The notes below the pieces were generated by a model. It ran no database searches. It worked only from the letters and a program-made list of their open reading frames with translations, and was not told where the DNA came from. Source: Acidobacteriaceae bacterium (GTDB lineage: Bacteria > Acidobacteriota > Terriglobia > Terriglobales > Acidobacteriaceae). From it: DNA of 64,000 bases. Of this stretch, positions 5,369 through 42,400 are shown one piece after another; position 1 is the stretch's first letter, and every line of letters starts with the position of its first letter. The DNA lies in the NCBI GenBank assembly GCA_003139095.1, contig PLHW01000037.1, forward strand, positions 1-64,000, written 5' to 3'. Position numbers and translations under genes: made by a program.

Positions 5369-5370
5369 CT

Positions 5371-5389: not shown

Positions 5390-5419
5390 CCGATCAATTT
5401 TGCCGAAAGGGCCGGATTT

Positions 5420-22877: not shown

Positions 22878-23963
22878 ATGGAGAATCCACTCAAGCTGAA
22901 GCGCATTCATCACGTCGAATTCTGGGTTGGCAACGCGCGTCAGGCCGCATTTTATTACCGCAAGGGCTTCGGGTTTTCGCAAGTGGCGTACAGCGGACTG
23001 GAAACCGGCCATCGGCAACGCACCTCCTACGCGCTCAGTCAGGGCAAGGCAAATTTCCTTTTGACTACGCCGCTGACGCCCGACGATCCCGCCGCAGATC
23101 ACATCAAAAAACATGGTGACGGCGTGCGTGATATCGCGCTCGAGGTCGCCGATGCGGATGAGGCATTTGCCGAGGCGGTGCGCCGCGGAGCGAAGCCAGC
23201 CGAGGAGCCGCACGATCTATCCGATGAGCACGGCACCGTACGCCGCGCCGCCGTTCATACCTACGGCGACACAATCCACTCCTTGATTTCGTACAAAGAC
23301 TACAAAGGCCCGTTCCTGCCCGGTTTTATGGCCGCTCCCGTTGCCGGAGACGACTGCGGCATCCTTCGCATCGATCACATCGTCGGCAACGTCGAACTCG
23401 GCCAGATGCGGCACTGGGCGGACTTCTACACCCGCGTCTTCGGCTTCCATCGCTACATCACCTTCGACGACAAAGATATTTCCACCGAGTACAGCGCGCT
23501 CATGAGCATCGTGATGTCCGACGATTCACACTCGGTAAAATTCCCCATCAACGAGCCCGCGCCCGCGCGCAAGAAGAGTCAGATTCAGGAATACATCGAG
23601 GCATACGGCGGCGCTGGGGCGCAGCACATCGCCCTCCAGTGTAAAGACGTGCTTTACACGGTTAGCAAACTGGAAAAGAACGGAATGGAATTCTTGCGCG
23701 TGCCCGACGCATACTATGATGCCCTGCCGGCGCGGGTCGGGCCGCTCGAGGAACCGATCGGCACGCTAAAGTCTCTGGGAGTGCTTGTGGACCGCGACGA
23801 CGAAGGCTATCTTCTACAGATCTTTTCCAAGCCCGTGGAAGACCGGCCCACCGTATTTTTCGAGGTCATCCAGCGCAAGGGCAGCCGCGGCTTCGGTAAA
23901 GGAAATTTCAAGGCGCTGTTTGAGTCAATCGAACTGGAGCAGGCGCGGCGCGGCAATCTATAG
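22878..23963 (+). CDS. hppD: 4-hydroxyphenylpyruvate dioxygenase
   Basis: This iron enzyme converts 4-hydroxyphenylpyruvate to homogentisate in tyrosine breakdown. Two glyoxalase-type halves are seen. The iron-binding residues fit RIDHIVGN (His), GAQHIAL (His) and [10 protein letters not shown] (Glu), and the C-terminal [18 protein letters not shown] is diagnostic. At 361 residues it has normal length. The start MENPLK is chosen because GGGGAACTGAGG precedes it; a GTG nine codons upstream would add an atypical extension. hmgA follows after 16 bases, so these form an operon with the next genes. Confidence 0.97.
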
Positions 23964-23979
23964 GCGGGGAAACGTCGAA

Positions 23980-25344
23980 ATGGCAACAGCAGAGACTACC
24001 AATGTAAGTGCGGCTACCGATCGCCCCAACAACGGCGCGAAGTTGGACCTGCGTTATCAGTCCGGCTTCGGCAACGAATTCGCCAGCGAGGCGGTGGAAG
24101 GCACGTTGCCGCGCGGCCAGAATTCTCCTCAAAAGGTAGCGCACGGCCTCTACGCCGAACAACTCAGCGGCACTCCATTTACCGCGCCCCGCGTGGCCAA
24201 TCGCCGCACCTGGCTCTACCGCATCCGTCCCTCGGTGGCGCACAAGCCATTTGCCCCGATCGCTTCGGGAAAATTGCGCAGCGCTCCGTTCGATGAACTC
24301 CCAACGCCGCCCAATCAACTCCGCTGGATGCCGATTCCGATTCCAGTTGCCATGGAGCGCACCGATTTCATCGACGGCCTCATCACCATGGCTGGCAACG
24401 GCAACGTCCACACACACTCGGGGCTGGCGATTCACATCTACGTCGCAAACACCTCGATGACCAATCGGTTTTTTTATAACGCCGACGGCGAGATGCTGAT
24501 CGTGCCGCAGATGGGCCGTCTGCTCCTGCGCACGGAGATGGGCCTGCTCGAAGCCGCGCCCGGCGAAATCGCGGTCATTCAGCGCGGAATTCGTTTTCGC
24601 GTCGAACTGCTCGACAAAGAGGCGCGTGGATACATCTGCGAGAATTACGGCGCGCTTCTGCGCCTGCCCGATCTCGGCCCCATCGGCGCCAACGGTCTGG
24701 CCAATCCGCGCGACTTCCTTTCTCCAGTCGCGGCTTTCGAAGACACGCAGGGCGACTTTCGCATCGTGACGAAGTTTCAGGGCAGGCTTTGGGAAGCCGC
24801 CATCGATCACTCGCCGCTGAACGTCGTTGCGTGGCACGGAAACTACGTTCCCTATAAATATGATCTGGCAAATTTCAATTGCATCAACACGGTGAGCTTC
24901 GACCATCCCGATCCTTCGATTTATACGGTGCTCACTTCACCCTCGGAAATTGCCGGCACCGCGAATCTTGACTTCGTAATTTTTCCGCCGCGTTGGATGG
25001 TTGCCGAGCGCACCTTCCGTCCCCCCTGGTTCCATCGCAATTTTATGAACGAGTTCATGGGGCTGGTTTGTGGCGAGTACGATGCCAAGGCGGAAGGCTT
25101 TGTCCCCGGCGGCGCCAGCTTGCACAATTGCATGGCGGGCCACGGCCCAGACACCGAGACCTTCGAGAAAGCAAGCAATGCCGACCTGAAACCGGTTCGC
25201 ATTCAAGACACGCTGGCTTTTATGTTCGAGACCCGCTTTGTCTGTCAGCCAACGAAATATGCGCTTGAGACTTCCGAGCTCGATCGTCAATACTTCGAGG
25301 TCTGGCAGGGTCTGGGCAAAAAGTTTGACGTGCCGGGCAGCTAG
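23980..25344 (+). CDS. hmgA: Homogentisate 1,2-dioxygenase
   Basis: The enzyme opens the ring of homogentisate to maleylacetoacetate. The sequence shows the family start [13 protein letters not shown], the [17 protein letters not shown] segment and [11 protein letters not shown], which carry iron-binding His residues. At 454 residues it is of normal length with a short extra N-terminus. The ATG lies about nine bases after GGGGA. The following gene starts three bases after the stop, so translation is likely coupled. Confidence 0.97.
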
Positions 25345-25347
25345 CGA

Positions 25348-26331
25348 ATGAACTCCAACGCAATCGAGGCGAGGCGGGATACCGACGGCGCAGTCCGCGC
25401 GTCCTCGGTCTTGCTGCGCAACCTGATTGACTACGCGGGCCTGTTTCCGCCAGCCTCGCTCGGCCTGAACGAAGCCGTAACGAATTACGCGGACTACTCG
25501 CGCTCCGAACATAGCTGGATCCTCGGGCGCTTCATCGTTCCCGCAACGCGTCTCGCCGAGTGCGCAGACGCTACTGCTCGCCCGCGTAACGAACGCGACG
25601 GAGCGCCATCGCCCAAAGGACTTTCAGTCTTGCTCGGTGCAGATTTTCTTTCTGACATTGCGCGCATTCGCGAATTCAATGCTCACTACAACTCCCGCCG
25701 CGGACATGAGGCAGAATCCGCCCCGGTGCAATCCAAAGTGCAATCCGTTGAGGTGAAGATCGGAAGTCCTGAAGAAGTCGAGAGGATCAGCCGCGCTCTT
25801 CCCGCCGAACTGGAAACGTACCTCGAAATCCCATGGTCAAACGATGGCGCGTCGAATCTCATGCGCGATTGCATTGCGGCAGTCGCGGATTGCGGGCGGC
25901 GCGCCAAGCTTCGCACTGGCGGCGAAACCGCCGATAAGTTTCCCGTGCCCGCGACCGTTCTGGAATTCATTCAGCTCTGCGCCGAATTTAACATTCCTTT
26001 CAAAGCGACCGCCGGCCTTCATCATCCGCTGCGCTCGCGCCACCGTCTTACGTATCAACCCGACAGCCCATCTGGAACCATGCACGGCTTCCTGAACGTT
26101 TTTCTTGCGTCCGCTTTCCTGCACGCCGGAATGGAACCCGCGCTCGCTCTCGATTTGCTCAACGAACAATCCGCCGACGCTTTCGAGTTCGGCGCGGCTA
26201 GCGTCGCTTGGCGCAACCACCAACTGAGCCTGGATGACCTCGCCGCGACGCGCGAGAGCTTCGCAATTTCCTTTGGCTCATGCTCCTTCACCGAGCCGAT
26301 TGACGACCTGCGCGCCTTAAAGCTCCTGTAA
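25348..26331 (+). CDS. Unknown protein encoded within the tyrosine-degradation operon
   Basis: The 327-residue cytoplasmic protein lies tightly between hmgA and fahA (gaps of 3 and 7 bases), the position where maleylacetoacetate isomerase (maiA) is often found. It does not look like the glutathione-transferase fold of MaiA: there is no N-terminal thioredoxin-like motif. Instead it has alternating strands and helices (AKLRTGG, PFKATAGLHHPLR, VEVKIGSPEEVERI) suggestive of a TIM barrel, and it has conserved-looking His, Arg and Lys residues in those strand ends. It begins with SVLLRNLIDYAGLFPPASL. A role in the isomerisation or regulation of the pathway is inference only. Confidence 0.8.
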   Translation: MNSNAIEARRDTDGAVRASSVLLRNLIDYAGLFPPASLGLNEAVTNYADYSRSEHSWILGRFIVPATRLAECADATARPRNERDGAPSPKGLSVLLGADFLSDIARIREFNAHYNSRRGHEAESAPVQSKVQSVEVKIGSPEEVERISRALPAELETYLEIPWSNDGASNLMRDCIAAVADCGRRAKLRTGGETADKFPVPATVLEFIQLCAEFNIPFKATAGLHHPLRSRHRLTYQPDSPSGTMHGFLNVFLASAFLHAGMEPALALDLLNEQSADAFEFGAASVAWRNHQLSLDDLAATRESFAISFGSCSFTEPIDDLRALKLL

Positions 26332-26338
26332 AAAATTT

Positions 26339-27730
26339 ATGAAGCCCATCCTCGACGAGACTCACGATCCCAGAGTGCAAAGCTGGGTCGAATCGGCCAA
26401 CACTGCGGGCTCGGATTTTCCGATTCAGAATCTCCCGTTCGGCATATTCCGGCGCAAGGCCAAGGCGCAAGAGGGAGTGGGAGTCGCAATCGGCGACCAG
26501 ATTCTCGACATCGCTGGCATACGAAGTGAGAACTTGTTGCAGACCGACGCGAATGTAATTGCAGCGGCAAATGCATGCGTCGTGCATTCACCAAACGCCG
26601 GCGCGCGCGATCACGATTCCTCCGCCCGGCCTTCGCTAAATCCGCTGATGGCCCTCGGCACCGCGCCTCGCCGCGCCTTGCGTCACCGTCTTCACGCGCT
26701 GCTGCGAAGCGACGCCGCTTCGTCCGAGCAGCAAGCCATTTCACGGCACCTGGTGCGCCAGGCGGACGTCGAACTGCTTCTTCCCGCCACAGTCGGCGAC
26801 TACACCGATTTCTACGCCTCGATTTTTCATGCCACCAACGTGGGCAAATTATTTCGTCCCGACAGTCCCTTACTCCCGAATTACAAATACATTCCCATTG
26901 GCTATCACGGCCGCGCCTCTTCGCTCGTCGCAAGCGGCGCGGCTGTCCGCCGGCCCTCGGGCCAAACGCGCGAGGGAAATGCCGATCCGAAATTTGCCCC
27001 GACTCGCGCGCTCGACTATGAACTCGAGGTCGGCTTTTTCGTGAGCGCCGGAAATCGGCTCGGCGAGCCCGTCCCCATTCACCACTCCGCGGAACATATC
27101 TTCGGAATTTGCCTGCTGAATGATTGGTCGGCCCGCGATGTGCAGGCCTGGGAATATCAGCCGCTGGGTCCGTTTCTCTCCAAAAGTTTTTCCACGTCGC
27201 TATCACCTTGGGTTGTGACCATGGAGGCCTTGGCCCCCTTTCGCGCCCCCGCTTTCGCCCGCCCCGAGGGCGATCCCGCGCCTCTGCCTTACCTTCTCGA
27301 CGCCGCCGATCAAGAGCACGGCGGCCTCAATTTAACGCTTGAAGTTTCGCTGCTCACGGCGCGCATGCGCGAGGCCGGCCTGGCTGCCGCGCCTTTAAGC
27401 CGCAGCAACTTTCGCGATCTCTATTGGACGATAGCGCAGATGTTGACTCACCACGCCAGCAACGGATGCAATCTGCTCCCGGGCGACTTGCTCGCCAGCG
27501 GAACCGTGTCCGGCCCAGACCTCGCGGGCGCGGAAAAAAGCGCGCGCGGTTGCCTGCTCGAATTAACCACGCGCGGCGCCAACCCGATCGCACTCCCGAA
27601 CGGAGAGCAGAGGAAATTTCTGGAAGACGGAGACGAGGTCATCTTTCGCGGATTTTGCCAACGCGACGGATTCCGCCGCATCGGCCTGGGCGAATGCCGC
27701 GGAACGATTCTCCCCGCCGTTCTAAATTAA
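26339..27730 (+). CDS. fahA: Fumarylacetoacetase
   Basis: The last enzyme of tyrosine degradation, it splits fumarylacetoacetate to fumarate and acetoacetate. The catalytic site is visible: YTDFYASIFHATNVG contains a metal-binding Asp and the catalytic His, LDYELEVGFFV carries the metal-binding Glu residues, and LNDWSARDVQAWEYQPLGPF is the core Asp motif. At 463 residues it is slightly longer than usual, with an insert of about 25 residues before the LALRHRL-like helix (around residues 80-105). It closes the operon; no terminator is clear after it. Confidence 0.96.
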   Translation: MKPILDETHDPRVQSWVESANTAGSDFPIQNLPFGIFRRKAKAQEGVGVAIGDQILDIAGIRSENLLQTDANVIAAANACVVHSPNAGARDHDSSARPSLNPLMALGTAPRRALRHRLHALLRSDAASSEQQAISRHLVRQADVELLLPATVGDYTDFYASIFHATNVGKLFRPDSPLLPNYKYIPIGYHGRASSLVASGAAVRRPSGQTREGNADPKFAPTRALDYELEVGFFVSAGNRLGEPVPIHHSAEHIFGICLLNDWSARDVQAWEYQPLGPFLSKSFSTSLSPWVVTMEALAPFRAPAFARPEGDPAPLPYLLDAADQEHGGLNLTLEVSLLTARMREAGLAAAPLSRSNFRDLYWTIAQMLTHHASNGCNLLPGDLLASGTVSGPDLAGAEKSARGCLLELTTRGANPIALPNGEQRKFLEDGDEVIFRGFCQRDGFRRIGLGECRGTILPAVLN

Positions 27731-29314: not shown

Positions 29315-30499
29315 ATGCAGGGTGTTGAAGGCTTCATGTATCCGAACGAAGTCGAGTTGCAATGGAGCGTGCTGATTGTTTTGTACCCGTTCCTCACCGG
29401 CCTGGTCGCCGGCGCCTTCATCCTCGCTTCGCTGGAACGCGTGTTCAACGTCGAGGCCGTCAAGCCCACGTATCGTCTTGCCTTACTGACCGCGCTCGCC
29501 TTCCTGCTGGTCGCGCCCTTGCCCTTGCAGCTTCACCTTGGCCACCCCGAGCGCTCGTTTGAGATGTACCTCACTCCCCACAGCACTTCGGCCATGGCCA
29601 TGTTTGGCTTTGTCTATCTCTGGTACCTCATGGCGGTCCTCGTGCTGGAAATATGGCTCGACTACCGGCGCGACATCGTCGTGCTCTCCCAGACCACAAC
29701 CGGCCTCACGCGCCTGATTTATCGCGCCCTCACCCTCGGCTCCTCCAACATCAGCGAGCATGCTCTCCATATTGACGATCGCGTTGGATGGGTGATCACC
29801 CTGATCGGCATTCCTTCCGCTTTTCTGTTGCACGGCTACGTGGGATTCATTTTTGGCTCGATCAAAGCGAACCCCTGGTGGTCCACGCCGCTGATGCCGG
29901 TCGTCTTTATTTTCTCGGCCATGGTGTCCGGTATCGCGGCCGTCATGCTGCTCTACATGCTGCTCACCTGGCTCCGCAAGCAAACCATCGACATGCGCTG
30001 CGTGGACACGATTGCCCAATATCTTTTCTATACCTTCCTCATCGATTTCACTCTTGAGATGCTCGACCTCATCCACCGCATCTACGAATCGGACGAATCG
30101 TTTCGCAGCCTCGACTTCATGGTTCACACCAAGCTCTACGTGTCCCACATTCTCGTTCAGATCATTCTTGGAACCATTACTCCGATTCTCCTCCTCGCCT
30201 CGACCCAGGTCCTGAAAATCTCGGACATGGCGCGCAAGCGAATCTATGCGACGGCGGGATGCCTGACCATGATCGGTATCTTCGCCATGCGCTGGAACGT
30301 CGTCATCGGCGGCCAACTGTTTTCCAAGAGTTTTCTCGGATACACCACGTACAAAATGGGTCTGGTCACGCGCGAGGGATTATTGACAGCGATCGTGCTC
30401 ACGCTTCTCCCACTCGTGATTCTGTGGGGGCTCGTGAAGCTGCTGCCGCCCTGGCCGGAAAAATCGCCCGCGGTGCCCGGCGCCTCAGCCGCTCACTGA
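29315..30499 (+). CDS. NrfD-like polysulfide reductase membrane subunit
   Basis: The 394-residue integral membrane protein has about nine helices and belongs to the NrfD/PsrC family, which oxidises or reduces quinone and hands electrons to the ferredoxin subunit. The segment PLQLHLGHPERSFEMYL with its HPER core and the later MRWNVVIGGQ are typical. The start is put at MQGVEGF after AAGGAA; an upstream Met is less supported. It follows the ferredoxin gene in the same direction. Without a catalytic subunit the module may feed another complex, which is inference. Confidence 0.9.
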   Translation: MQGVEGFMYPNEVELQWSVLIVLYPFLTGLVAGAFILASLERVFNVEAVKPTYRLALLTALAFLLVAPLPLQLHLGHPERSFEMYLTPHSTSAMAMFGFVYLWYLMAVLVLEIWLDYRRDIVVLSQTTTGLTRLIYRALTLGSSNISEHALHIDDRVGWVITLIGIPSAFLLHGYVGFIFGSIKANPWWSTPLMPVVFIFSAMVSGIAAVMLLYMLLTWLRKQTIDMRCVDTIAQYLFYTFLIDFTLEMLDLIHRIYESDESFRSLDFMVHTKLYVSHILVQIILGTITPILLLASTQVLKISDMARKRIYATAGCLTMIGIFAMRWNVVIGGQLFSKSFLGYTTYKMGLVTREGLLTAIVLTLLPLVILWGLVKLLPPWPEKSPAVPGASAAH

Positions 30500-30534
30500 T
30501 TCAGCCAGCATTCGATTTAACTCGGGGATCGAAT

Positions 30535-32214
30535 ATGGACGAGCTTTCCCACGCTATAGCACGGCTCGATGCGCGTCTGGAAAGCCTTGAGCGCCGAATC
30601 CTCGCCCTCGAGGCGTGCGCCCCGCGATCGAATGTTGTCGTTCTCCCGGTTTCCTCCCAACCCGCGAACGCGCCGCACGAGTTCGCCTTGCCTCAGGCCG
30701 GTGGCTTCTTTCCCATTGCCGGCAAGGCCATGCTCGGCATTGCCGGAGCCTATTTGCTGCGTGCGGTCGCCGAGTCCGGCTCGTTTCCAATGCTCGCCAT
30801 CGCTGTCCTCGCCATGGCCTACGCAGCCGCTTGGCTCGTGTGGGCGGCCCGCACGCCCGGCTCGCTCGCTTCCACCGCGTACGCCGCGACCTCCGCGCTA
30901 ATTCTCGTCCCCATGCTCGGCGAGCTCACTCTGCGTTCCCAGGTGTTGCCGGCTCCCGCAACCGCCGCATTGCTGAGTGCATTCGTCAGCGCTGCATTGC
31001 TTCTGGCATGGAAGCGCAATCTCACTTCGCTCGTTTGGATCGCCGAGGTCGCAACCGTCTTCGCGGCGCTAAGCCTGCTCATCCTCTCCCACGATCTCGT
31101 CCCCTACACCGCCGCTCTCCTCGTTGCCGCCGCAGTCAGCGAGATCGCAGCCGCCACCGATCGCTGGCGCCGTCTCCGCTTCCTGGTTGCGCCGGCAGCC
31201 GACATCGCGGCTGCAATTCTCATTTACATCCACTCGCTCCCGGAAACCTCGCGCCCCGGCTACGCCACGGTTTCAAACTCTGTGCTGCTCGCGCTCCCTT
31301 CCGCGCTTTTCTTCATCTATGGAGCGAGCTTTGCCTGGCGAACCATCTGGCGCCGCCGTCAAACAACATTCTTTGAGATTGCCCAATCCATCATCACGTT
31401 CACACTGGCCCTATTCACCTGGCTCTGGTTCTATCCCGCCGCGGGCCGGTTCGGCGCTGGAGCTTTCTGCTGGTTGCTGTGCGCCGCTTGTTACGCCGCC
31501 GCCTTCGTTGTATTCGACCGCATCGCCGAGCAACGCAACTACCACGTCTACGCCACCTACAGCGCCGCACTTCTTCTCGCCGGCAGTTTCCTGCTGCTGC
31601 CGTCATTCTATGTAGCGCTGTTCCTGACGGCTTGCTCTGTCGTCGCCACGCTGGTCGGGCTCAAAGTCAGCCGCCTCACACCTGAATTCCATGGCCTGCT
31701 CTATCTCACCGTCGCCGCCTACGCTTGCGGTCTACTGCAATATGCGGGGCAAGCGCTTGCCGGAACCTTCCCCACTGCGCCCGGCTGGAGCGTCTGGATC
31801 GTCGCCATCGCCGCCGTCTTCTGCTACGCCATCGGCGGACGATTCGCCGGCGAGCGCTGGAACGAGCGCCTGCTTCGGCTCCTCGCCGCCATCCTCGCCG
31901 TCAGCGCAGTCGCCACCTTCCTCGTCTCCTGCATGGTATGGCTCGCGGCCATCGGCATGACTCCCGGTGCATCCCATGTGGCCGTCATCCGCACCCTCAT
32001 CACCTGCGGCCTCTCGCTTGCCCTGGCCGCCCTCGGTTCGCGCTGGAAGCGCAACGAACTTGTTTGGACCGCCTACGGCACGCTCGCTTTGGTCAGCGCC
32101 AAGCTGCTATTCGAGGATTTGCCCCACGGCCATTCCGGCTCGATCGCAATTTCGATTTCTTTATATGCGCTCGCGCTGATCATGGTCCCCCGCGTCGCGC
32201 GCATGGGGCGATAG
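30535..32214 (+). CDS. Large polytopic membrane protein (DUF2339-like)
   Basis: The 559-residue protein starts with a short coiled coil (HAIARLDARLESLERRILALE), a linker, and about 16 hydrophobic helices. This arrangement is typical of DUF2339 membrane proteins, whose role is unknown. The start follows CGGGGA, 35 bases after nrfD, so it is likely the last gene of that transcript. The stop lies in a 14-base tandem repeat. A link to the redox module is suggested only by position. Confidence 0.8.
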   Translation: MDELSHAIARLDARLESLERRILALEACAPRSNVVVLPVSSQPANAPHEFALPQAGGFFPIAGKAMLGIAGAYLLRAVAESGSFPMLAIAVLAMAYAAAWLVWAARTPGSLASTAYAATSALILVPMLGELTLRSQVLPAPATAALLSAFVSAALLLAWKRNLTSLVWIAEVATVFAALSLLILSHDLVPYTAALLVAAAVSEIAAATDRWRRLRFLVAPAADIAAAILIYIHSLPETSRPGYATVSNSVLLALPSALFFIYGASFAWRTIWRRRQTTFFEIAQSIITFTLALFTWLWFYPAAGRFGAGAFCWLLCAACYAAAFVVFDRIAEQRNYHVYATYSAALLLAGSFLLLPSFYVALFLTACSVVATLVGLKVSRLTPEFHGLLYLTVAAYACGLLQYAGQALAGTFPTAPGWSVWIVAIAAVFCYAIGGRFAGERWNERLLRLLAAILAVSAVATFLVSCMVWLAAIGMTPGASHVAVIRTLITCGLSLALAALGSRWKRNELVWTAYGTLALVSAKLLFEDLPHGHSGSIAISISLYALALIMVPRVARMGR

Positions 32215-32247
32215 TCAAAGGGCCGATAGTCACGGGCCGATAGCAGG
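32206..32247 (+). repeat. 14-base tandem repeat, three units, at the stop codon
   Basis: Three 14-base units begin GGGC, contain CGATAG, and differ at a few bases. The first unit holds the last codon and stop of the DUF2339-like gene. Confidence 0.7.
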
Positions 32248-32337
32248 GACCACTGGCGGCGATAGCGCCCACACGATGCAGTGTGTAAAAGCTGCTGTCG
32301 GCGCACCGCGCAGTTCACGCCACTCCATCTTTCTTAG

Positions 32338-33753
32338 TCACTTCATCGGCGGCACGTATGGTATGTAGTGCGCGAACAGCCAGCACAGGAAGAAGACGAC
32401 GGGGATGTGAACCATGAGTTGCAAAACTCCGTAGCCCACAATGTCGCGCGCTTTCAGCTTCAGTATGCCGAGCAGGGGTAGCATCCAGAAAGGGTTCACC
32501 AGGTTCGGCAGCGCCTCTGACGCATTGTAGATCTGCACCACCCAGCCTAAATGCACACGGTGCAGGTTTGCCGCCTGCAGCACGTACGGCGCTTCGATCA
32601 CCCACTTGCTGCCGCCCGATGGAATAAAAATGCCCAGCACCGCCGAGTAAGTCGCAACCAGCAGCGGGTAACTGTTATGCGTGCTGACCGCCGCAAACAG
32701 TTTTGCCAGCGCGTCGGAGATTCCCGTCCCGACGATCATCCCGAAGATCACCGCGTAAAACGGAAACTGGATCAGCACGCCTCCCGTCGCCGGGATACAT
32801 TCGGCAACCGCGCGCAGGAAGCGCTTGGGCCGCCAGTGCAGCAGCAGTCCCGCGGTGATGAACATCAGGTTGTACGTATTCAGGTCGAGCGCCGCCAGCG
32901 CCCCTTGCGGCGAGGTGCGGAAAACATCCACCAGGTACCACAGCAGCAGCGCCGCGACCAGAATTGTCAGCAGCGGACTGTATTCGAGCCACTCGCCCGG
33001 TTTGTGTTTCGGTTCCAGCGTGGATTGAATTGGCTCGTAATGGATGCCATAAGATTCCGCCGTTTTCGCGTTCTCCGCCGAGGGCGTGGAGAGATACGCA
33101 ATCAGCACCGAGAGAACGATGAGGATAAATGCGGTCGCAATGCTCTGCCACAGGAACAGCGTTTGCGTCAGTGGGATCAATCCGCTGATGTTGAACAGGG
33201 AAGGCGGCATGGTCGACTTTGTCGCCATCAGCATCGCCGCCGACGAAGACAGTCCCATGGCCCACACTGCTCCCAGTCCGAGGTAGGCGGCCGCGCCCGC
33301 CGCGCGGTAATCCATACCTTTGACGCGGTGCGCCAGTTCGCGCACGAACAAGCCGCTGAAGACCAGGCTCAGCCCCCACGAAATGAGCGAGGTCAGCATG
33401 GAGAAGAGCGCGACCATCGCAACCGCTGACCTTGGGCTTTTTGGAATTCCCGCTAACGCCCGGATCGCCCGATACACCAGTGGCGTCGACGCAACCACGT
33501 ATCCGCCAATAATGATCATCACCATCTGCATGGTGAAGGGCACGAGCGACCAAAAGCTCTTGCCGCCCTGGATCGCCAGTTGCGCGGGCTTTTGATGCAG
33601 CGCGAGGCCAACCAGAAATACGACCACGATTCCCAGCAACGCGAAGACGAGCGGGTCGGGGAACCACTTCTCGCTCCAGTTGGCCAGTCCCAGGCCAAAG
33701 CGCACCATGGCGCTTTCTGATTTTGCGGACTGCTCCTTCACCACCGGCATCGG
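32338..33753 (-). CDS. Short-chain fatty acid transporter (AtoE family)
   Basis: The 471-residue protein has about twelve membrane helices and matches the AtoE/TIGR00366 family, thought to import short-chain fatty acids such as acetoacetate or butyrate. Seen elements include NWSEKWFPDPLVFALLG near the start, FTMQMVMIIIGGYVVA, and the C-terminal FIPSGGSKWVIEAPY. The start MPVVKE follows AAGGG; an upstream Met would add 15 residues. Acetoacetate from the tyrosine operon is a possible relation, but the genes are 5 kb apart, so this is speculation. Confidence 0.88.
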   Translation of the reverse strand, partial: PMPVVKEQSAKSESAMVRFGLGLANWSEKWFPDPLVFALLGIVVVFLVGLALHQKPAQLAIQGGKSFWSLVPFTMQMVMIIIGGYVVASTPLVYRAIRALAGIPKSPRSAVAMVALFSMLTSLISWGLSLVFSGLFVRELAHRVKGMDYRAAGAAAYLGLGAVWAMGLSSSAAMLMATKSTMPPSLFNISGLIPLTQTLFLWQSIATAFILIVLSVLIAYLSTPSAENAKTAESYGIHYEPIQSTLEPKHKPGEWLEYSPLLTILVAALLLWYLVDVFRTSPQGALAALDLNTYNLMFITAGLLLHWRPKRFLRAVAECIPATGGVLIQFPFYAVIFGMIVGTGISDALAKLFAAVSTHNSYPLLVATYSAVLGIFIPSGGSKWVIEAPYVLQAANLHRVHLGWVVQIYNASEALPNLVNPFWMLPLLGILKLKARDIVGYGVLQLMVHIPVVFFLCWLFAHYIPYVPPMK

Positions 33754-33823
33754 CGAGTCACCCTTGCCAACAGCACGGAATTCTAACCTACATTCCAAAT
33801 TATTGGGGGACCCTCAATCGCCA

Positions 33824-34537
33824 TCAGCGGTCCAGGATTCGAGCGTTGACTTCTACTTCCCAGTCCGCCTTCCGCGCGTTCCGATCATAAGAAATATCCA
33901 CGACCTGCCGGATGCCGAAGAGCGACACCGAATGGTGGAAAATGCCGCCCGTTCCGCCCAAGGCCTCCTCCGCGAGCGCGACAAGTTCGGATGGCGCGTA
34001 TGCCCGGCGGATCGACGTCTGTCCATCGGCCGCCGTGATACGGGAAACGAAAGGCGCGATAAATGCGCGAAACAGCCCAAGCGCCACGCGGCTTCGCACT
34101 AAGTCGATCAGGATGAAGCGTGGGCACGATCGCCCCACGTTCTGGATCAACTGCACCAATTCTGAACTGGAAAGGTGATGGGCGACATGAAGAGAAAAGG
34201 CCACATCGGCGGGCGGCAGGGCCTCGCGCACCGCATCGGCTCTCACGATTGTGATGCGTGCGGAGGCGCGAACCACTGAAGGCGACATATCGATGCCGAT
34301 CCCCTCGACGCCGAGTGCTTCGGTCACTCTTTCCAGAATGGCACCGTTGGCGCACCCGATATCGAGCACGCGACGGATCGGAACCGGATGGCGGCACAAA
34401 GCCAGGATCAGGCAATTGGTGTCGCCGAGCACTCGATGGATAGCCGCTAGCTCGCGGTAAGAGCGCGCCGCGGACGCTGCTGGAATATTGTCGCTATCCA
34501 GAATCTCGGAATCGAGCGATCTTTTCATTGCCGCCAT
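33824..34537 (-). CDS. Class I SAM-dependent methyltransferase
   Basis: The 237-residue protein has the SAM-binding loop VLDIGCANGAIL, an acidic strand end (GIGIDMSP) and the post-III region VAFSLHVAHHLSSSEL found in small-molecule methyltransferases. The leading helix (SYRELAAIHRVLGDTNCLI) is typical of enzymes with lipid or polyketide substrates, but this is only suggestive. The start is after GAGG. It diverges from the ferredoxin-methyltransferase fusion with 202 bases between the starts. Two different methyltransferases back-to-back may act in one pathway. Confidence 0.85.
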   Translation of the reverse strand: MAAMKRSLDSEILDSDNIPAASAARSYRELAAIHRVLGDTNCLILALCRHPVPIRRVLDIGCANGAILERVTEALGVEGIGIDMSPSVVRASARITIVRADAVREALPPADVAFSLHVAHHLSSSELVQLIQNVGRSCPRFILIDLVRSRVALGLFRAFIAPFVSRITAADGQTSIRRAYAPSELVALAEEALGGTGGIFHHSVSLFGIRQVVDISYDRNARKADWEVEVNARILDR

Positions 34538-34739
34538 GGCGCGCCCTCGTTCCGGTGTCAGTGGGCACCGACTCCCTCACGAAGAATACCGTTGAACGGC
34601 GGCGAGCGCTTGCTTCATGTGACCGATGTCACGGCGTCTCGGGCCGCTCCCTAAGAGAATTGAAGTTCATCTTGCGAGGACCGTTCGCGGTCGCTCTGCG
34701 CAGAATTGTTTTTTACCACCGTTTCCCGGGAGGATTTTC

Positions 34740-36092
34740 ATGGAACCGTTTCGTCATCACATTTTTGTATGCACGCAGGAAAAGCCCGAGGGCGTCGCCT
34801 GTTGCCCCGCCAGCGGCGCCTGGGGTCTGTTAGGTGCCCTGGACCGCGAACTGCGTTCGCAGGGCCTCGACGACGAAGTTCAGGTGAGTACCTGCGGATG
34901 CCTGGGCTTGTGCGATGACGGGCCGATCATGATCGTCTATCCCGAAGGCGTCTGGTACCGGAAGCTCAAGGCGGAAGATGTTGCCGAGATTGTGACCTCG
35001 CATCTGCGTTCCGGAAATGTCGTGGCGCGGCTGGCATGGACCGATGCGCCCGCGATGAAGGCTGCCTCCAAAGAACATCGCGACCGTTATGGCGCGATGG
35101 TGAAAGCGAAAGACGAAGCCGGCACTCTTCCCGACGATCTTGACCAGACGATTCGCGCATACATGCCGAGCCGTACGCTGCTCACCGCACTCGAATTGGA
35201 CATCTTCACCGCGGTTGGCACGGGCGGCTCCGCCGGGCAGGTTGCGCAAAAAATTCGCGCCGACGCCCGCGCAACCGAGATGCTCCTCAATGCGCTCGTC
35301 AGCCTCAAGCTCCTCCAAAAGAAAGATGGAATCTTCCTCAACAGCGCCGCGACCATGCGTTTCTTTTCGGCGGGATCGCCCAACAATGCGCGCGACGGCC
35401 TGCTCCACACGGCGAATATCTGGCATCGCTGGTCCACGCTGACCGAGTGCGTGCGCGCCGGCACTTCTGTCGCAACCGAAGGCCGCGACCATGGCTGGGT
35501 CAAGAATTTCATCGTCTCTATGAATCGCAACGCCACCGAGCGCGCCGACGCCGTGATCAAGGCCGCCGCGCCCGGTCCCATCCGCCGCATGCTTGACCTC
35601 GGCGGCGGATCGGGAGCCTATTCGATTGCCTTTGCTCGCGCCATACCAACCCTCGAATCCGAGGTTCTCGATCTCGCCGAAGTGGTGCCGCTCACTCAGG
35701 AATATATTCGCAATGCCGGGCTGAGCGATCGCATTCAAGCCCGCGCCGGCGACATGCTGCGCGATCCTCTCGGATCGAATTACGATCTGGTCCTGATCTC
35801 CGCCATCTGCCACATGTTCTCGCCGGAAGAAAATCGCGACCTGTTTCGACGTGCGTATCAAGCGCTCGCCCCCAAAGGGCAGATCGTTGTGCAGGATTTT
35901 ATTCTTGAGCCGGCGAAGACCGCTCCGCGATTTGCCGCGCTGTTCGCCTTGAACATGCTGGTCGGTACGCGAGCCGGCAGCAGCTATAGCGAGCCCGAGT
36001 ACGAAACTTGGCTGCGCAAATCGGGATTCTCCGCGGTGCGCCGCGTGCGCCTGCCCGGCCCCAGCGGCTTGATGATCGCCGCGCGCGATTAA
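34740..36092 (+). CDS. [2Fe-2S] thioredoxin-like ferredoxin fused to O-methyltransferase
   Basis: A 450-residue two-domain protein. Residues about 1-95 form a thioredoxin-like [2Fe-2S] ferredoxin with Cys at 11, 21/22, 54 and 58, ending in the motif CGCLGLCDDGP. After a linker, residues about 130-210 form a winged-helix dimerisation domain (AYMPSRTLLTALELDIFTAV) and residues about 275-450 a class I methyltransferase (MLDLGGGSGAYSIAFA near 283) with a plant/antibiotic O-methyltransferase-like end. GGGAGG lies six bases before the ATG. The fusion implies that methyl transfer is coupled to redox state or electron delivery; the acceptor is unknown. Confidence 0.88.
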   Translation: MEPFRHHIFVCTQEKPEGVACCPASGAWGLLGALDRELRSQGLDDEVQVSTCGCLGLCDDGPIMIVYPEGVWYRKLKAEDVAEIVTSHLRSGNVVARLAWTDAPAMKAASKEHRDRYGAMVKAKDEAGTLPDDLDQTIRAYMPSRTLLTALELDIFTAVGTGGSAGQVAQKIRADARATEMLLNALVSLKLLQKKDGIFLNSAATMRFFSAGSPNNARDGLLHTANIWHRWSTLTECVRAGTSVATEGRDHGWVKNFIVSMNRNATERADAVIKAAAPGPIRRMLDLGGGSGAYSIAFARAIPTLESEVLDLAEVVPLTQEYIRNAGLSDRIQARAGDMLRDPLGSNYDLVLISAICHMFSPEENRDLFRRAYQALAPKGQIVVQDFILEPAKTAPRFAALFALNMLVGTRAGSSYSEPEYETWLRKSGFSAVRRVRLPGPSGLMIAARD

Positions 36093-36112
36093 ACCCCGCG
36101 CGATTAAGAGCC
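36082..36112 (+). repeat. 15-base duplication at the fusion-gene stop codon
   Basis: CGCGCGATTAA is repeated 15 bases later; the first copy includes the stop codon. Two units only. Confidence 0.55.
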
Positions 36113-36244
36113 CGCGGAAAAATTCGTTGTCGACGGAACCGGGAAGGGCAGGAGTTTTACTCGTGCCAATAACAGCACCTCAAACGACTGTGGCTTGAAG
36201 CCCCTGCCGTTTGCAACGCCGCTCAGAACCGCGTTTTGCCTCCG

Positions 36245-36985
36245 CTACTGGGCATCGTCCGCGTAGGGATAAACGTACCCGGGCCAGCCAAAATAGCCAT
36301 ACGGATCGCCCCACCACAGGCTGTCCCAGTATGGATACGGATAGACCGCCCAGTACGGATTCCAGCCAATCCCCCAGCCGAAACCGTAGCCCCATCCGCA
36401 ACCCCAGCAACCCCAGCCGAAGCCGTATCCGCGATATCCCCAGCCCCCGCGCCAGCCGCCCCAACCACCAGCACCCCAGCCTCCGTGGATGAAGGCCGCG
36501 TTGCCGCCGAATCGCGTACCCGTCGCGAGCGCCGCATGCGTATTGCCGAACGAGTGCCATTGTCCGTCTGCGATCGCGCTGTGCATGCCGTTCGCCCCAC
36601 CCATGCGATTGGAGGCGCCTAACGAATGCCATCCGGGCGAAGTGTCAGCGCGGCCGAGTGAAGACCCTCGCTGTCCGCCCACGCCACGTGCCGCCGATTC
36701 GCGCCCCATGCTGCCGTAGCGCTCCGAGCCGGACGCCGGTCCTCCACGCGGGCCGCCGTACGAAGAACCGCCGTACGGAGAACCGCCATGGAATCCGCCC
36801 TCACTGGGGCCACCGTGAAAGCTGCCGCCTCCTCCGGACGGCCCGCCGCTGTGCGAGCCGCCGCTGCTTCCGCCCCCACCATGACCGCCGCCATGTTGGG
36901 CAAAAGCAACTTCCGGCGCGCAAATAATCAGGAAGAAGGAAATAAAGCTGGCGAGAATGATTTGACGCAAGGTGGGTTGATACAT
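36245..36985 (-). CDS. Secreted Gly/Ser/His/Trp-rich protein
   Basis: The 246-residue product has a signal peptide (ILASFISFFLIICAPEVAFA) and then three low-complexity zones: His/Gly/Ser repeats (HGGGHGGGGSSGG, GGSPYGGSSYGG), a middle with two related copies (PGWHSLGASN, GQWHSFGNTH), and a Gly/Trp/Tyr-rich end (WGGWRGGWGYRGYGFGWG). Such proteins may be glue-like or envelope-associated structural proteins. The His and Trp content could allow metal or carbohydrate binding, but nothing proves it. It ends 150 bases after the fusion gene, convergent with it, and lies downstream of the LuxR-type regulator. Codon use is normal. Confidence 0.7.
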   Translation of the reverse strand: MYQPTLRQIILASFISFFLIICAPEVAFAQHGGGHGGGGSSGGSHSGGPSGGGGSFHGGPSEGGFHGGSPYGGSSYGGPRGGPASGSERYGSMGRESAARGVGGQRGSSLGRADTSPGWHSLGASNRMGGANGMHSAIADGQWHSFGNTHAALATGTRFGGNAAFIHGGWGAGGWGGWRGGWGYRGYGFGWGCWGCGWGYGFGWGIGWNPYWAVYPYPYWDSLWWGDPYGYFGWPGYVYPYADDAQ

Positions 36986-37128
36986 AGTGCCCTCCGTGCA
37001 AACGCAGACGGCGCAGGCCGCTCCGCGTGTGTTCTATTCTGTTGGAATCTTATTCTATCGAGGAAGGTTGTCCCTGGAGAAGCCCCCGGACAAAGCGGCG
37101 CAAAATTGCGCGTTCGAACCCCAAGCCG

Positions 37129-37168
37129 GGGAACAGTCTCGGTCTTCGAGTGGGCTGAGATTGTTCCC
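37129..37168. other. 12-bp imperfect hairpin downstream of the regulator gene
   Basis: GGGAACAGTCTC and GAGATTGTTCCC pair with one mismatch around a 16-base loop, 24 bases beyond the regulator stop. No T run follows, so terminator function is doubtful. Confidence 0.35.
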
Positions 37169-37191
37169 GAAACCAACCAATTGAGTGATGT

Positions 37192-37899
37192 CTAGGGACT
37201 ACCACGCACGATGTACGGCGTTCGTATCGCTACATTCGCCAGATCGCCGACTTCTGACTGGCACAGCTCGACGACCTCTAAACGATCCTTTGCACCAATC
37301 TTCCGCAGAATGCGATGGATATGGTTCTTGACGGTCTGCTCGGATAGATTTAAGCGGCTTCCGATTTCCTTGTTGGAGAGCCCAAGGCGAATCGTTTCTA
37401 CCAGTTGCTGCTCTCTCCGGGTCAATCCATGTTTCGTTTTGTGCGGCGGTCTGCAAGCAAGCGAAGCGTCCCGCGCGGCACATCGGAACAGCGCCAGCGA
37501 AAATCTCGGTGGGCAGACCGCTTCCCCGGCTGCGACTGCCCGGACTACGCGGACAATCTCGGCGGCCGATGCGTCCTTCAGAACGTAGCCCACGACTCCT
37601 TCAGCCACGGCATGGAGAAAAGTGCATTCATCCTCTTCCATGCCGACCATAACCACCTTGCGGTTTTCTCCCGCCTGCCGCATGCGTGAAACTAGCCGCG
37701 GCCCGGTAAGTGCAATACTCGGGGAGTCAAACAGAACTACATCTGGATTCGCTGCCGCAACCTTCTCCAAAGCAGTGCTCGAGAATGGAATTGCTCCTGC
37801 TACGGCTATGTCGTCCTTCTTTCGCAGGACTCGTACCAGGGCTTCGCGGAGCAGACAATTCTCCGCAATCAGGAAAGTTACAATACGCTCGAGAGACAA
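37192..37899 (-). CDS. NarL/FixJ-type response regulator
   Basis: The 235-residue protein has a receiver domain (about 5-125) with the phosphoacceptor D58 in VVLFDSP and the switch Lys in GYVLKDAS, and a LuxR-type helix-turn-helix (about 155-220, LTRREQQLVETIRLGLSNKEI and TVKNHIHRILRKIG). The acidic pocket reads AEN rather than the usual ADD. It is divergent from the pseudo-receiver and the exopolysaccharide operon, so it may control that locus; no histidine kinase is nearby. A 483-base upstream region separates it from the next gene. Confidence 0.92.
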   Translation of the reverse strand: MSLERIVTFLIAENCLLREALVRVLRKKDDIAVAGAIPFSSTALEKVAAANPDVVLFDSPSIALTGPRLVSRMRQAGENRKVVMVGMEEDECTFLHAVAEGVVGYVLKDASAAEIVRVVRAVAAGEAVCPPRFSLALFRCAARDASLACRPPHKTKHGLTRREQQLVETIRLGLSNKEIGSRLNLSEQTVKNHIHRILRKIGAKDRLEVVELCQSEVGDLANVAIRTPYIVRGSP

Positions 37900-38382
37900 A
37901 ACTACACATCCTCCGCTGGCAAATCCTCTGTGCCCCTCAGAGTCCCCCTCGCGCCAGCCGACAACTTTATCACATCTGCATTACTCTCCATTACTCTCCG
38001 CGTACCAACACAATGAGCTCGTTGTGGGTTGCCTCCGGGTAGCTCCTTCGAGTAGGATGCTGTATCGAACAATCCTGTGATGGCAAATCAGCTGCGCCAC
38101 TGCGACCACGGGAGGTCGCGGCGAAGCGTTCTCCATTGGCGCGTCTGGATGCGACAGCCGTGACACCATCGGCGGCGAAGCGGCGAGTGATCCAGCCAAA
38201 TTGCGGGCCAGTCTCTGAACGACACACTTTTTAATGCCTGGTTCGGTACCTGCCAGGTACCATGACTGACGTGCATAGTGGTACTGCCATAACGATGCGT
38301 TGACCAATGCTGTTTGAGTACGGAATTGAATCTTGCGCGACTTCTCACAACCACGTAGAAGTATCTGGAGAGGATTACGCCC
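37900..38382. promoter_or_regulatory. 483-base control region between divergent regulators
   Basis: No gene is supported here. It holds a tandem 10-base repeat (ATTACTCTCC twice, about 37979-37998), a 17-base palindrome at 38245-38261, and several GC-rich inverted patches. The size and position suggest a promoter-operator region for the exopolysaccharide locus. No -10/-35 pair is convincing. Confidence 0.45.
38245..38261. promoter_or_regulatory. 17-base palindrome, possible operator
   Basis: GGTACCTG and CAGGTACC form perfect 8-bp arms around a single C, a strong dyad 122 bases before the pseudo-receiver start. The binding protein is unknown; the LuxR-type regulator next door is a candidate. 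Confidence 0.5.
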
Positions 38383-38763
38383 GTGAAACGAGTGCGAGTT
38401 TTAGTTGCAAACCGCCCCCGCCTTATGCGGGAGCTCGTGCTCGCCGTCATCGCCGACCAACCTGACATCGAGGTGATTGGCGAAGTGCAGGATGAAAACG
38501 ACCTCGCCGAGGCAGTCGAAGAGGCCCAGCCCGACATCTTAATTCTTGCGCTCGACGACGCTGATAAGCGTGTTGCGCAGTGCGGCTTTCTGCTTGGGAG
38601 GTATCCGCGCATGAAGATTCTTGCGCTCGCGCCAGAGCAGAATCGCGGAATGTTCTATTGGGCGACGGTAGACGTTCGCACAAAGCCGCTGGAGAGTTCC
38701 GAAGCTGGCATCTTGAATGCTTTGCGCGAACGTCCATCGCTGGTCGGCACCGCGCACACGTAG
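38383..38763 (+). CDS. Stand-alone receiver-like protein lacking the phosphoacceptor
   Basis: The GTG-started 126-residue protein follows CTGGAGAGG. It has the receiver-domain pattern (VRVLVANRPRLMRELV, LAEAVEEAQPDILILALDD, MKILALAPEQ and a Lys before Pro in VRTKPLESS), but the acidic pocket reads ANR and position 56, where Asp is expected after PDILIL, is Ala. It is therefore probably a phosphorylation-independent pseudo-receiver. No output domain follows. It lies between the control region and the NusG-like gene, likely as the first gene of the exopolysaccharide operon. It might bind a partner regulator. Confidence 0.82.
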   Translation: MKRVRVLVANRPRLMRELVLAVIADQPDIEVIGEVQDENDLAEAVEEAQPDILILALDDADKRVAQCGFLLGRYPRMKILALAPEQNRGMFYWATVDVRTKPLESSEAGILNALRERPSLVGTAHT

Positions 38764-38786
38764 CGAGGGAGGCCGCGATTTGAATG

Positions 38787-38812
38787 TAATTTATTGAAAT
38801 TAAGCAGCTTAC
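38787..38812. repeat. AT-rich repeat related to the 18.7-kb repeats
   Basis: This copy shares TTATTGAAA, TAA and CTTAC at the same spacing as the units at 18699-18776. It lies in the short gap before the NusG-like gene. Confidence 0.45.
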
Positions 38813-38870
38813 GTTCGCTTTGTGAATGTAACTGAGAGGGCGGAGCTGTAGTTAGGGAGCGGAAGCGGTT

Positions 38871-39440
38871 CTGAACACACACGCAAATTACGAGACGTCA
38901 CAAAGCAGCTTCGCGGGCGAAGCCTTAATCCCGGCCGAAAAGCCTCTGCCGCCTGAGCGGTGGTATGCCATTTCGGTTCGCCCAAGGCACGAAAAGCTGG
39001 TGAGCCGGCATCTGGCACACCAGGGACTAAACTATTTTCTTCCGACCTACCGCAGCGTTCGCCGGTGGAAAGATCGGCGCAAAGAATTGGACATGGCCTT
39101 GTTCCCGGGTTATGTCTTCGTAAACCTGAGCCTTCGCAATCGCATGGGCGTCCTTCGCGCTCCCGGTTTTCTGCGATTCGTGACCTTTCAGGGCCAGCCG
39201 GCCGCGGTTCCAGACTCCGAGATCCGCGCACTTGAGTCAGCCATGTCCGCGGGTCTGCGGCCTCAACCTCATCCCTACCTGCGCCAAGGAAAACGAGTTC
39301 GCGTGAAGAACGGGCCTCTCGCGAACGCCGAAGGAGTGATGATTCGCCGCAAAGACGGCTTCCGCCTGGTAATTTCGCTCGATCTGATCATGCGATCGGT
39401 GATGCTCGAAGTGGACGAAGTCGACGTTGAACCTGTGTAA
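38871..39440 (+). CDS. NusG-like antiterminator (RfaH/LoaP/UpxY type)
   Basis: The NGN-domain opening (RWYAISVRPRHEKLVSRHL, then FLPTYRSVRRWKDRRKELDMALFPGYVFVNL in outline) and a C-terminal KOW part (QGKRVRVKNGPLANAEGVM) identify a NusG paralogue that lets RNA polymerase read through long polysaccharide operons. The first ATG/GTG/TTG in frame is GTG 39000, which would cut off the first NGN strand, while the frame stays open back to a stop at 38853-38855. I therefore place the start at CTG 38871, just after GGAGCGGAAGCGG. This start is inference. It precedes the exporter gene by 55 bases. Confidence 0.85.
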   Translation: MNTHANYETSQSSFAGEALIPAEKPLPPERWYAISVRPRHEKLVSRHLAHQGLNYFLPTYRSVRRWKDRRKELDMALFPGYVFVNLSLRNRMGVLRAPGFLRFVTFQGQPAAVPDSEIRALESAMSAGLRPQPHPYLRQGKRVRVKNGPLANAEGVMIRRKDGFRLVISLDLIMRSVMLEVDEVDVEPV

Positions 39441-39495
39441 AGATCCATTGCTCAGGCGAAATCAGATTTCAAAGATTTGCAGGAAGAGATTTCTT

Positions 39496-42400
39496 ATGTT
39501 CAGTATGCTCCGTGCGATTCGTAAATCGGGCTTCTCGTGCCCAGTCAGGGTAGGGGAATCAGGTTTGATTAATCATGAGATGAGATTCGACAGCACGGTT
39601 GCGGCCCGTAGTTGGGGCCGACAGATGCTCTTTTGTGTCGGGCTTGCTCTTGCCACTGGTGGCCTGAGCCTATTGGGTCAGACACGACCGCAGACGCCTG
39701 TCCCGCAGTCTGAACTAGCGCGGCAAAATATGGAGCGCGTTGCCGCTCCCGTCGGCCAGTTGGTCGGCATCCTCCACCGGGATCCGGGTTTGATGGTGGA
39801 ACTGAAGCGTTGGATCGCCAAGGACGCAACCGACCACGGTCAGCTGATTTCAGACCCTGACCTGGCGGACGAAGCGATCTTCGAACGTCTGGAAACCGAC
39901 ATCGTCTTTCGTTCAGTCGCAACCGCCATGGTGCAGAAGTACGGCTACCTGCAACCGACAATCAATCCCGATTCTCCACTCGCCAAGCAACAGGACTTGC
40001 TGATCCAGGAGCGCGTGAAGTGGATAGCACAGGAAGAGGGCGAAGAGCGGGCAAAGGCGCGCCAGGAACAAGAAAGGGCGTTGGAGCGGACTCAAACCTG
40101 CGATCCCCGCAGCAGCAACTGCGCGGCCCAGAATTTCACGAATCCCGCCATTCAGCAACTGCAGCAACAGCCGAGGGTCTATCAGCCTGGAATCAATCAG
40201 GGTCCGGCGCAAGTACCGGGGCTGGAAACGCCGCAAGGTCCTCTGAATGGTCCCTATGCCCCTTCTACTCCTTTTTCTCCTTACCTTCCACCGCAGCAGA
40301 CCCTGCCCAACAATGACGTTACCGAACTCCTCAGGACCAGCGGGCAGGACCCGTTCTCGATGGCACAAATGCAGTCAGGGAGTGGAACCTTCGGCGGTAC
40401 GTCTGGGCTCGGGGATGAGGGTGGGGAAGGCAGCAGTTCACTGCAACGCAATGCGCAGAGGGCGTTTCAGTCTGGAGGTTCTGAGTCTGGGGGAAGCCAG
40501 TTCGGGGATTTTTCGCTGTCTGGAGGCTTCTTGGGCGATGAGATGAGTCAAGGTCTCTACTCCAGCGCGCTTTCGAACCAGGGGACTTACCCGTTGAGTC
40601 CTTATTCGGCGGGAGGGCCATACGGCAATGGCCTCGGCACATCACGATATGACACCACAACTAACCCTGCCCTGGCCATGTCGAACTTGCTGCGAGCGAA
40701 GGAGTCGACGAGTCAGAGCCAGCGCTTGGTCCGCAGCCCAAACCCGTATGACGATATTCCCTCTCTTTATGACATGTACCTGCAGACCGTGGCGCGCCCC
40801 CAGGCGGTGGAGCGTTTCGGAATGCAGGTTTTCGAGAACGGCACCCGTGATCTTCAGATGATCCCCACCGATCTTCCCGCAGGTCCCGATTACGTATTGG
40901 GATCTGGCGATGGAGTTTCGGTCGACCTATGGGGAGGAGTTTCGCGGCGGTTCTACCGCGTCGTTGACCGCACGGGCCGGATCAGTCTGCCCGAAGTGGG
41001 GCCCGTCCTGGTTGCTGGCAAGTCTCTGGCGGAAGTCCAGGAGTCGGTCCAGAAGGTTCTGCGGACGGAGTTCCGCGACGTTTCCGCCGATGTTTCTCTG
41101 GCCCGCTTGCGCACGATTCGCGTGTATGTGGTCGGAGACGTGCTTCGCCCGGGTGCTTATGACGTGGGTTCGCTTTCGACGCCCCTGAACGCGCTCTTCG
41201 CGGCGGGAGGACCGACCGGCCGAGGCTCCTTGCGAATTGTCAAACACAATCGCGGAAATCAGACGGTGCAGGACGTTGACATTTACGACCTGCTTCTCAA
41301 TGGAGTCAAGGGGGACATCCAGCGACTGGAAGACGGCGATACCGTCATGGTACCGCCTCTGGGGCCGGAGATCACCATGGAAGGAATGGTCCGGCGACCG
41401 GCCATTTACGAACTGAATCAGGAGAAATCACTGGCGGAGGCGATTGGCCTGGCTGGCGGTTTGCTGCCCACGGCGATGTTGCGCCATATTGAAGTTCAGC
41501 GCCTGGTCGCGCACCAGAAGCAGACCATGCTCAGCCTGGACATCCCGCAGGACGACACCTCGGACCAAATCACGAAGCAACTGGAGTCGTTCCAGATCCA
41601 GGATGGGGACAAGATCAGGATTTTTCCGATCGCTCCCTATGCGCAGGATGCGGTGTACGTTGAGGGCCATGTGGTTCGGCCAGGAAAATACTCGTTCCGC
41701 GAGGGCATGCGCGTGACCGACCTGATCAGTTCGTACAAGGATCTTTTGCCCGAGCCGGCGTTGCAGTATGGTGAAATTATCCGGCTGAGTCTGCCGGACT
41801 TCCGTCCCACCGTAGAGAGCTTCAATGTGGCTGCGGCACTGGCCGACCCGGCCAAGGCTCCATTGTTGAAGGCGCTGGACACGGTGCAGATTTTCGGCCG
41901 CTATGACTTCGAGAATCCGCCCGTCGTCTCCGTGTTGGGCGACGTGCGAGTTCCGGGAACATACCGCACTTCAGGCGATATTCATCTTGGCGATGCGGTT
42001 CATTTGGCCGGCGGACTGGCTCCCGATGCGGAGACGGTCGATGCCCAGGTGTTCCGCTATATGCCGGATAGCACCCTGAAGATTCTCAACGTGAAGTTGG
42101 ACAGCGCATTGGACGGCAACCCTGCGGATAACATCGAACTGAGATCGCGCGATCGCGTGCTGATACACAAGAATGCGGCGGCGGCCGACCCGGTCACAGT
42201 GTATGTCAAGGGAGAAGTGGTCAGACCCGGACGCTATCCCCTCACGGGCGACATGCGCGTCTCCGATCTAATCCGTACGGCCGGCGGTCTGAAGGAGAGT
42301 GCCGACACCAAGACTGCCGATCTCACTCAATACACCTGGAATAACGACAGGCAAGTAACCGGCACACAAGACAAAATCGCGCTTGCCGACGCGCTCGCAG

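Follow-up and report, generated by a model that had tools for sequence, protein, structure and literature searches.

One open reading frame of 450 residues plus stop (as read by translation), at positions 34740 to 36092 of the window (the whole stretch of 64,000 nucleotides of Acidobacteriaceae DNA that was analysed), encodes a thioredoxin-like [2Fe-2S] ferredoxin (TLF) joined to an O-methyltransferase. The features of the locus are as follows.

34740–36092, plus strand: fused TLF–O-methyltransferase gene, 450 amino acids, recognised by its frame, profile matches and alignment to relatives.
34740–35039, plus strand: TLF domain, residues 1–100, with proposed ligands Cys11, Cys22, Cys54 (or Cys52) and Cys58.
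35046–35117, plus strand: predicted linking helix, residues 103–126 (AlphaFold2).
35130–35327, plus strand: O-methyltransferase dimerisation domain, residues 131–196 (PF08100 match).
35475–36032, plus strand: PF00891 match, residues 246–431, with the SAM-binding LDLGGGSG (285–292) and the proposed catalytic His358.
33824–34537, minus strand: divergent small class I methyltransferase gene, not treated as a partner, since of the loci searched this genome alone has it beside the fusion.

The ATG of the fusion gene is preceded, by eye, by a ribosome-binding-like GGGAGG, and its start residue is common to 15/15 aligned relatives, which begin with MEPFR or a near variant. As the original prediction stated, the TLF lies in frame with a full dimerising O-methyltransferase (family 2, complete, residues 131–450), both domains being recognised in the one 450-residue frame. 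The AlphaFold2 model of the whole protein (mean pLDDT 91.7, pTM 0.80) places one helix, residues 103–126, between the two parts; seven free-standing TLFs end, or align poorly, at the level of this helix.

The N-terminal part possesses cysteines at positions 11, 21, 22, 52, 54 and 58. The spacing in the window protein, C11-X10-C22-X31-C54-X3-C58, agrees with the TLF motif C-X10-12-C-X29-34-C-X3-C given in an excerpt of PMC11138216, and supports the proposed assignment of residues 11, 22, 54 and 58 as the ligand cysteines. With PF01257 the window protein scores 24.6 bits, 0.2 bits short of the cut-off of 24.8; at E <= 0.001 this family matches 43 of 59 fusions (the window included) and fails to match 16, in an alignment picked by hand from which contig-end fragments, duplicates, L099, L135–L141 and L154 were left out. 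NF041612 gives 84.4 bits on residues 1–100, its equivalog cut-off being 150. A sequence search with the same residues retrieved HydB (7t2r; E 1.1e-20) and the Aquifex aeolicus ferredoxin (1f37; E 1.7e-17). Residues 1–128 folded alone gave a pLDDT of 95.3. The TLF model matches Azotobacter FeSI (5abr; Z 17.2, rmsd 1.2, 102 residues aligned), and the A. aeolicus TLF structures 1m2b, 1m2d, 1m2a and 1f37 are matched with Z 16.2–16.4. By sequence and fold together, the homologs include HydB, Nfn and the 24 kDa subunits of complex I.

In the C-terminal part of the window protein both PF08100 (41.5 bits, cut-off 25.6) and PF00891 (99.2 bits, cut-off 22.3) score above their cut-offs, and both match in 59/59 fusions at E <= 0.001. 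The SAM-motif residues D286, G288–G290 and D311 are invariant in all 59. His358, which we take to be the general base, is likewise present in 59/59 and in every one of the 53 rows of an alignment that combines fused and free proteins. His-type O-methyltransferases of this kind take phenols, and PF08100 enzymes are homodimers. The methyltransferase model resembles 2r3s (Z 34.9, rmsd 3.3 over 322 residues), DsyB (7wdq; Z 34.3, rmsd 3.5 over 321) and RedM (8tjj; Z 33.9, rmsd 3.4 over 316); with PigF and ASMT added, the five comparisons span Z 33–35 and rmsd 2.5–3.5 over 316–323 residues. On the evidence of the predicted models, both domains fold with confidence and resemble solved structures of their own families, and we regard the architecture with an intact, predicted cluster as highly probable.

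Related genomes, in which the original prediction proposed to look for the fusion, do carry it. In a named collection both domains lie in one frame in 47 of 75 loci (the best 80 of 129 stretches), two of the 47, L068 and L090, being cut by contig ends. Full-length fusions were found in 16 of 61 near genomes, among them 13 of the 24 of the window's genus (its own genome counted); a draw of 399 genomes from the class yielded 22 with such a fusion, and one of 396 from the phylum yielded 8. The window's own genome is part of the near, class and phylum figures, the draws have genomes in common, and in the class and phylum draws no more than four candidates were scored for each genome. Left out of the counts were fragments in G159 and G417, as well as G016 (gene cut by contig ends) and G233 (split, two overlapping frames). 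The fused loci belong to Terriglobia, Bryobacterales and other Acidobacteriota, with one from the Myxococcota (L100) and one from a 'delta proteobacterium' (L098). The fusion records of the named collection are metagenome-assembled genomes by title, and independent assemblies agree. Since so many of the named loci carry both domains in one frame, the fusion is no assembly accident, and its recurrence across many related bacteria makes a function very likely. The gene is patchy in its distribution, which suits an accessory rather than a housekeeping function.

Cys11, Cys22 and Cys58 are present in 59/59 fusions. Cys54 is found in 45, with Ser in the remaining 14, and Cys52 in 50; no row is without both. 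The invariance of the first three, taken with the absence of any row that has neither Cys52 nor Cys54, argues that a real cluster, as predicted, is retained in the TLF domain. A set of 66 rows was assembled from TLF matches of >120 bits with no stop (65 distinct, the window having been entered twice, as itself and as L139). In these rows positions 52–54 read CGC in 38, CGS in 18, SGC in 9 and TGC in 1; Cys54 with X3 to Cys58 occurs in 48/66 and Cys52 alone (X5) in 18/66. On a tree of the 66 rows built with the cysteine-ligand columns left out, position 54 changes once, at the CGS clade; this clade has 18 rows with support 98 and includes the four rows from phylum-draw genomes outside the class. 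Position 52 changes eight times on the tree and not at all inside the CGS clade, where 3.5 changes would be expected at the rest-of-tree rate (rough P 0.03, a modest signal). Because the outgroup rows, L098 and L100, carry Cys52 as well as Cys54, and position 52 is constant in the CGS clade, the alignment may be read as a move of the cluster ligand from position 54 to 52, via a two-cysteine (CGC) state. Cysteine ligand swapping was reportedly described by Golinelli in 1996 and 1998 for the Clostridium pasteurianum ferredoxin, in work cited by PMC11138216 and PMC8038993. Since the A. aeolicus structure 1m2b is that of a Cys55Ser variant, the serine at position 54 may itself act as a cluster ligand in the CGS clade.

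The dN/dS values of 11 close pairs range over 0.06–0.43 for the TLF domain, 0.06–0.62 for the linker and 0.10–0.30 for the methyltransferase, and the mean column entropy among the 59 fusions is 1.13, 1.56 and 1.14 bits, respectively. As judged from these sequence comparisons, the TLF and methyltransferase domains are both under purifying selection.

Relatives without the TLF domain were placed on a quick tree built from 118 methyltransferase domains, of which 63 are fused; on this tree the label 'fused' needs six changes, a count that cannot separate loss from gain; the quick trees have many open forks and flagged long branches, L098 among them, and L098, L100 and the free forms cannot be put in order with certainty. 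The TLF-free L157 falls in a starred (100) set of three with two fusions, and loss of the TLF is here the simpler reading. L156, also TLF-free, is placed outermost in a starred (98) set of 49 rows with 47 fusions; this set sits inside a weaker (89) set of 64 rows, 61 of them fused. Both frames begin shortly 5' of the dimerisation domain. No TLF relic was detected upstream of either gene, as checked on their longer loci, L164 and L165, nor upstream of the free methyltransferases in the 14 loci tested (best E 0.41). In the loci examined no TLF gene lay beside the free-standing methyltransferases at E <= 1e-5, a find that would have shown the pair in unfused form; the distant free forms of Bryobacterales and anammox planctomycetes are also without a TLF gene in the loci examined. 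The TLF-free relatives retain the methyltransferase motifs of the fusion.

Because L156 and L157 nest among the fusions, the TLF domain is probably not required for methyl transfer itself, though the role of the free forms may have shifted; a dispensable TLF makes the cluster more likely accessory. The original prediction had taken the single chain to suggest redox-gated or electron-coupled methylation. Obligatory electron coupling is weakened by the same nesting; a redox role is plausible.

L099 (same locus as L049), a third one nested among the fusions that might have passed for a further loss of the TLF, is a truncated copy that starts near residue 155 and contains one TAA. In L049 this truncated second methyltransferase copy lies at about 8488–9369, and the genome has an intact fusion on another contig. 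Three free relatives, at 1–1071 (+) of L170, about 7582–8619 (-) of L172 and about 7785–8960 (+) of L174, have Sec-like N-termini by eye, from putative starts; a Sec signal peptide is odd for a SAM-dependent enzyme. In L168 (717–3480) there is a 4-base overlap between a free relative and hemD, behind hemC; the possible link to tetrapyrroles was observed in this one genome only. A haem link was set aside, as the hem proteins of L168 matched no other locus searched except L160, a shorter locus of the same genome. In 10 loci of anammox-type planctomycetes (L111, L113–L116, L118–L121 and L130) the free relative follows a conserved protein of ~520–570 residues at a distance of one or two genes.

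The second methyltransferase gene of the original prediction is indeed present at 33824–34537, 202 bases from the fusion; it encodes a small class I enzyme scoring 74.6 bits with the PRK06202-type profile NF004851, below the cut-off of 243. The listing of gene neighbours, which had been expected to point to the substrate, revealed no recurring neighbourhood: within four genes on either side, the top cluster, among the clusters listed, occurs in 4 of 62 distinct fused loci. These are what remain of 83 loci entered, two having been left unplaced by the gene caller and the rest of the difference being duplicates; the caller is crude (ORF length plus GC3) and small neighbours may be missed. Among 111 neighbouring proteins (from 130 qualifying, in 48 hand-chosen loci) 160 Pfam families were recognised at E <= 1e-6, none with more than three occurrences. 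The fusion gene appears to stand alone, and, there being no conserved neighbour, its genomic context gives no substrate. No Rfam match was found in 30000–40000, where an RNA switch was sought, and no sigma-70-like promoter in 33700–36400, including the gap between the divergent genes, which is not evidence against expression.

Elsewhere in the window, at 23785–27730, homogentisate 1,2-dioxygenase and fumarylacetoacetase genes flank that of a 327-residue protein to which no Pfam family matches; together they make up a cluster for tyrosine-type breakdown, ~7 kb away from the fusion. At 37192–39440 a NusG-like gene and one for a LuxR-type response regulator precede a long run of genes, polysaccharide-type as judged by eye, that starts at 39427.

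Taken as a whole, we tentatively propose a soluble, probably homodimeric class I SAM O-methyltransferase with N-terminal redox control by a TLF. By analogy with its families, the C-terminal part would methylate a hydroxyl group, probably phenolic or quinol-like, with His358 as the presumed general base, and two subunits would pair through PF08100. The TLF domain would hold a [2Fe-2S] cluster near its surface, and helix 103–126 would tie this domain to the methyltransferase. The cluster would thereby act as an accessory control on the enzyme, responsive to redox state (or oxygen), and would take no part in methyl transfer. According to an excerpt of PMC11138216, TLF clusters lie near the surface and the function of TLFs is elusive, a regulatory one having been proposed. 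Accessory redox control is favoured over obligatory electron delivery. As a role for the TLF domain it is a candidate held with some reserve, ranked ahead of a structural or docking function and of electron delivery.

A structural or docking role, next in rank, we consider rather unlikely. Here the TLF would add a second dimer contact or a partner-binding face, and the cluster would merely stabilise the fold. Such a contact would suit the PF08100 enzymes, homodimers as a family. TLF proteins, too, function as dimers, according to the same excerpt of PMC11138216. The low dN/dS of the TLF domain and its column entropy, equal to that of the methyltransferase, are consistent with this role, as are Lys15 and Glu17, invariant in 59/59 fusions where the seven free TLFs have Arg15 and no Glu17. 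Taken alone, however, it leaves unexplained that Cys52 is fixed exactly where position 54 is Ser.

Electron delivery, in which the TLF cluster would reduce a substrate in the pocket, for example a quinone to a quinol that is then O-methylated in one process, is unlikely. The subunits of electron-transfer complexes among the TLF homologs (HydB, Nfn, complex I 24 kDa) and the retention of a His-type O-methyltransferase, phenols being the substrates known for the family, point towards it. So does locus L216, where an aldehyde ferredoxin oxidoreductase gene (4365–6158) is found two genes upstream of the fused gene on the same strand. Against these are to be set the TLF-free relatives with the same methyltransferase motifs and the lack of a conserved reductase nearby. 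The fuller version, in which the TLF would reduce, for example, a quinone, O-methylation would trap the reduced form and the ligand would have moved naturally from Cys54 to Cys52 via CGC, is more doubtful still.

A TLF domain that has become a cluster-free relic is very improbable: Cys54 is Ser in 14/59 fusions and some relatives have no TLF domain, but Cys52 is present in every Ser54 row and the TLF dN/dS is low. Least credible of all is the small pathway of the original prediction, with the fusion and the methyltransferase of 33824–34537 modifying one substrate in turn, since a tblastn search with the divergent gene (E <= 1e-3; 223 sequences of differing flank lengths, 130 of them, 68 distinct, with a fused frame) found only the window and two copies of its locus, although with such flanks a more distant partner may escape the search; the divergent arrangement, 202 bases apart, speaks for it, and the lack of a sigma-70-like promoter between the genes proves little against it.

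A TLF fused to an enzyme whose activity is easy to measure provides a direct handle on the job of the cluster, whether gate, donor or scaffold. Natural controls exist in the TLF-free relatives of the methyltransferase and in fusions that carry Cys52, Cys54 or the two together. Redox gating, if true, would tie the state of the Fe-S cluster to methylation among a group of soil bacteria. The fusion itself is not astonishing; it makes the open question of TLF function directly testable. No description of a TLF–methyltransferase fusion was found in the open-licence PMC papers searched, one hit, PMC11126956, being set aside as unrelated, nor anything relevant on Fe-S or redox-regulated methyltransferases or on a TLF with nitrogenase.

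The free TLFs (A. aeolicus 1f37, Azotobacter FeSI 5abr and the C. pasteurianum 2Fe-2S ferredoxin; PF01257, NF041612) share their fold with the TLF of the fusion, and the window protein has all four ligand positions with the same spacings. Unlike these free-standing proteins, the fusion TLF is joined to a methyltransferase and has the extra Cys52, which is absent from the seven free TLFs compared. One clade of fusions would read C-X10-C-X29-C-X5-C if Cys52 is the ligand, whereas the last C-X3-C of the free TLFs is canonical. With the family 2 O-methyltransferases (2r3s, DsyB, RedM, PigF, ASMT and DnrK/RdmB) the fusion has in common the dimerisation and SAM domains and the catalytic His. The matched chains of this family are about 300–380 residues long and align from about fusion residue 122, with no space for a ferredoxin domain. 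The nearest of them show 25–27% identity to the fusion, so that no substrate can be borrowed from these enzymes. The PDB methyltransferase 22ow_A (461 residues) has, like the fusion, a long N-terminal part, its match starting near residue 143; the TLF query gave no hit in this part at E <= 1, and the entry was rejected as one of the same architecture.

A TLF domain within a multidomain chain or complex is also found in the HydB, NfnB and NuoE-type subunits, which belong to electron-transfer complexes with flavin and several clusters; their chains, unlike the fusion, are not methyltransferases. RumA/RlmD are methyltransferases with an added Fe-S cluster. METTL17/Rsm22 is described in an excerpt of PMC11138216 as a methyltransferase with a [4Fe-4S] cluster. 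Both pairs resemble the fusion in combining a class I methyltransferase with an accessory cluster, but theirs is a [4Fe-4S] cluster of other position and fold in RNA-related proteins, and the likeness is one of analogy only. The fusion is a new combination of two known families, each domain being well known.
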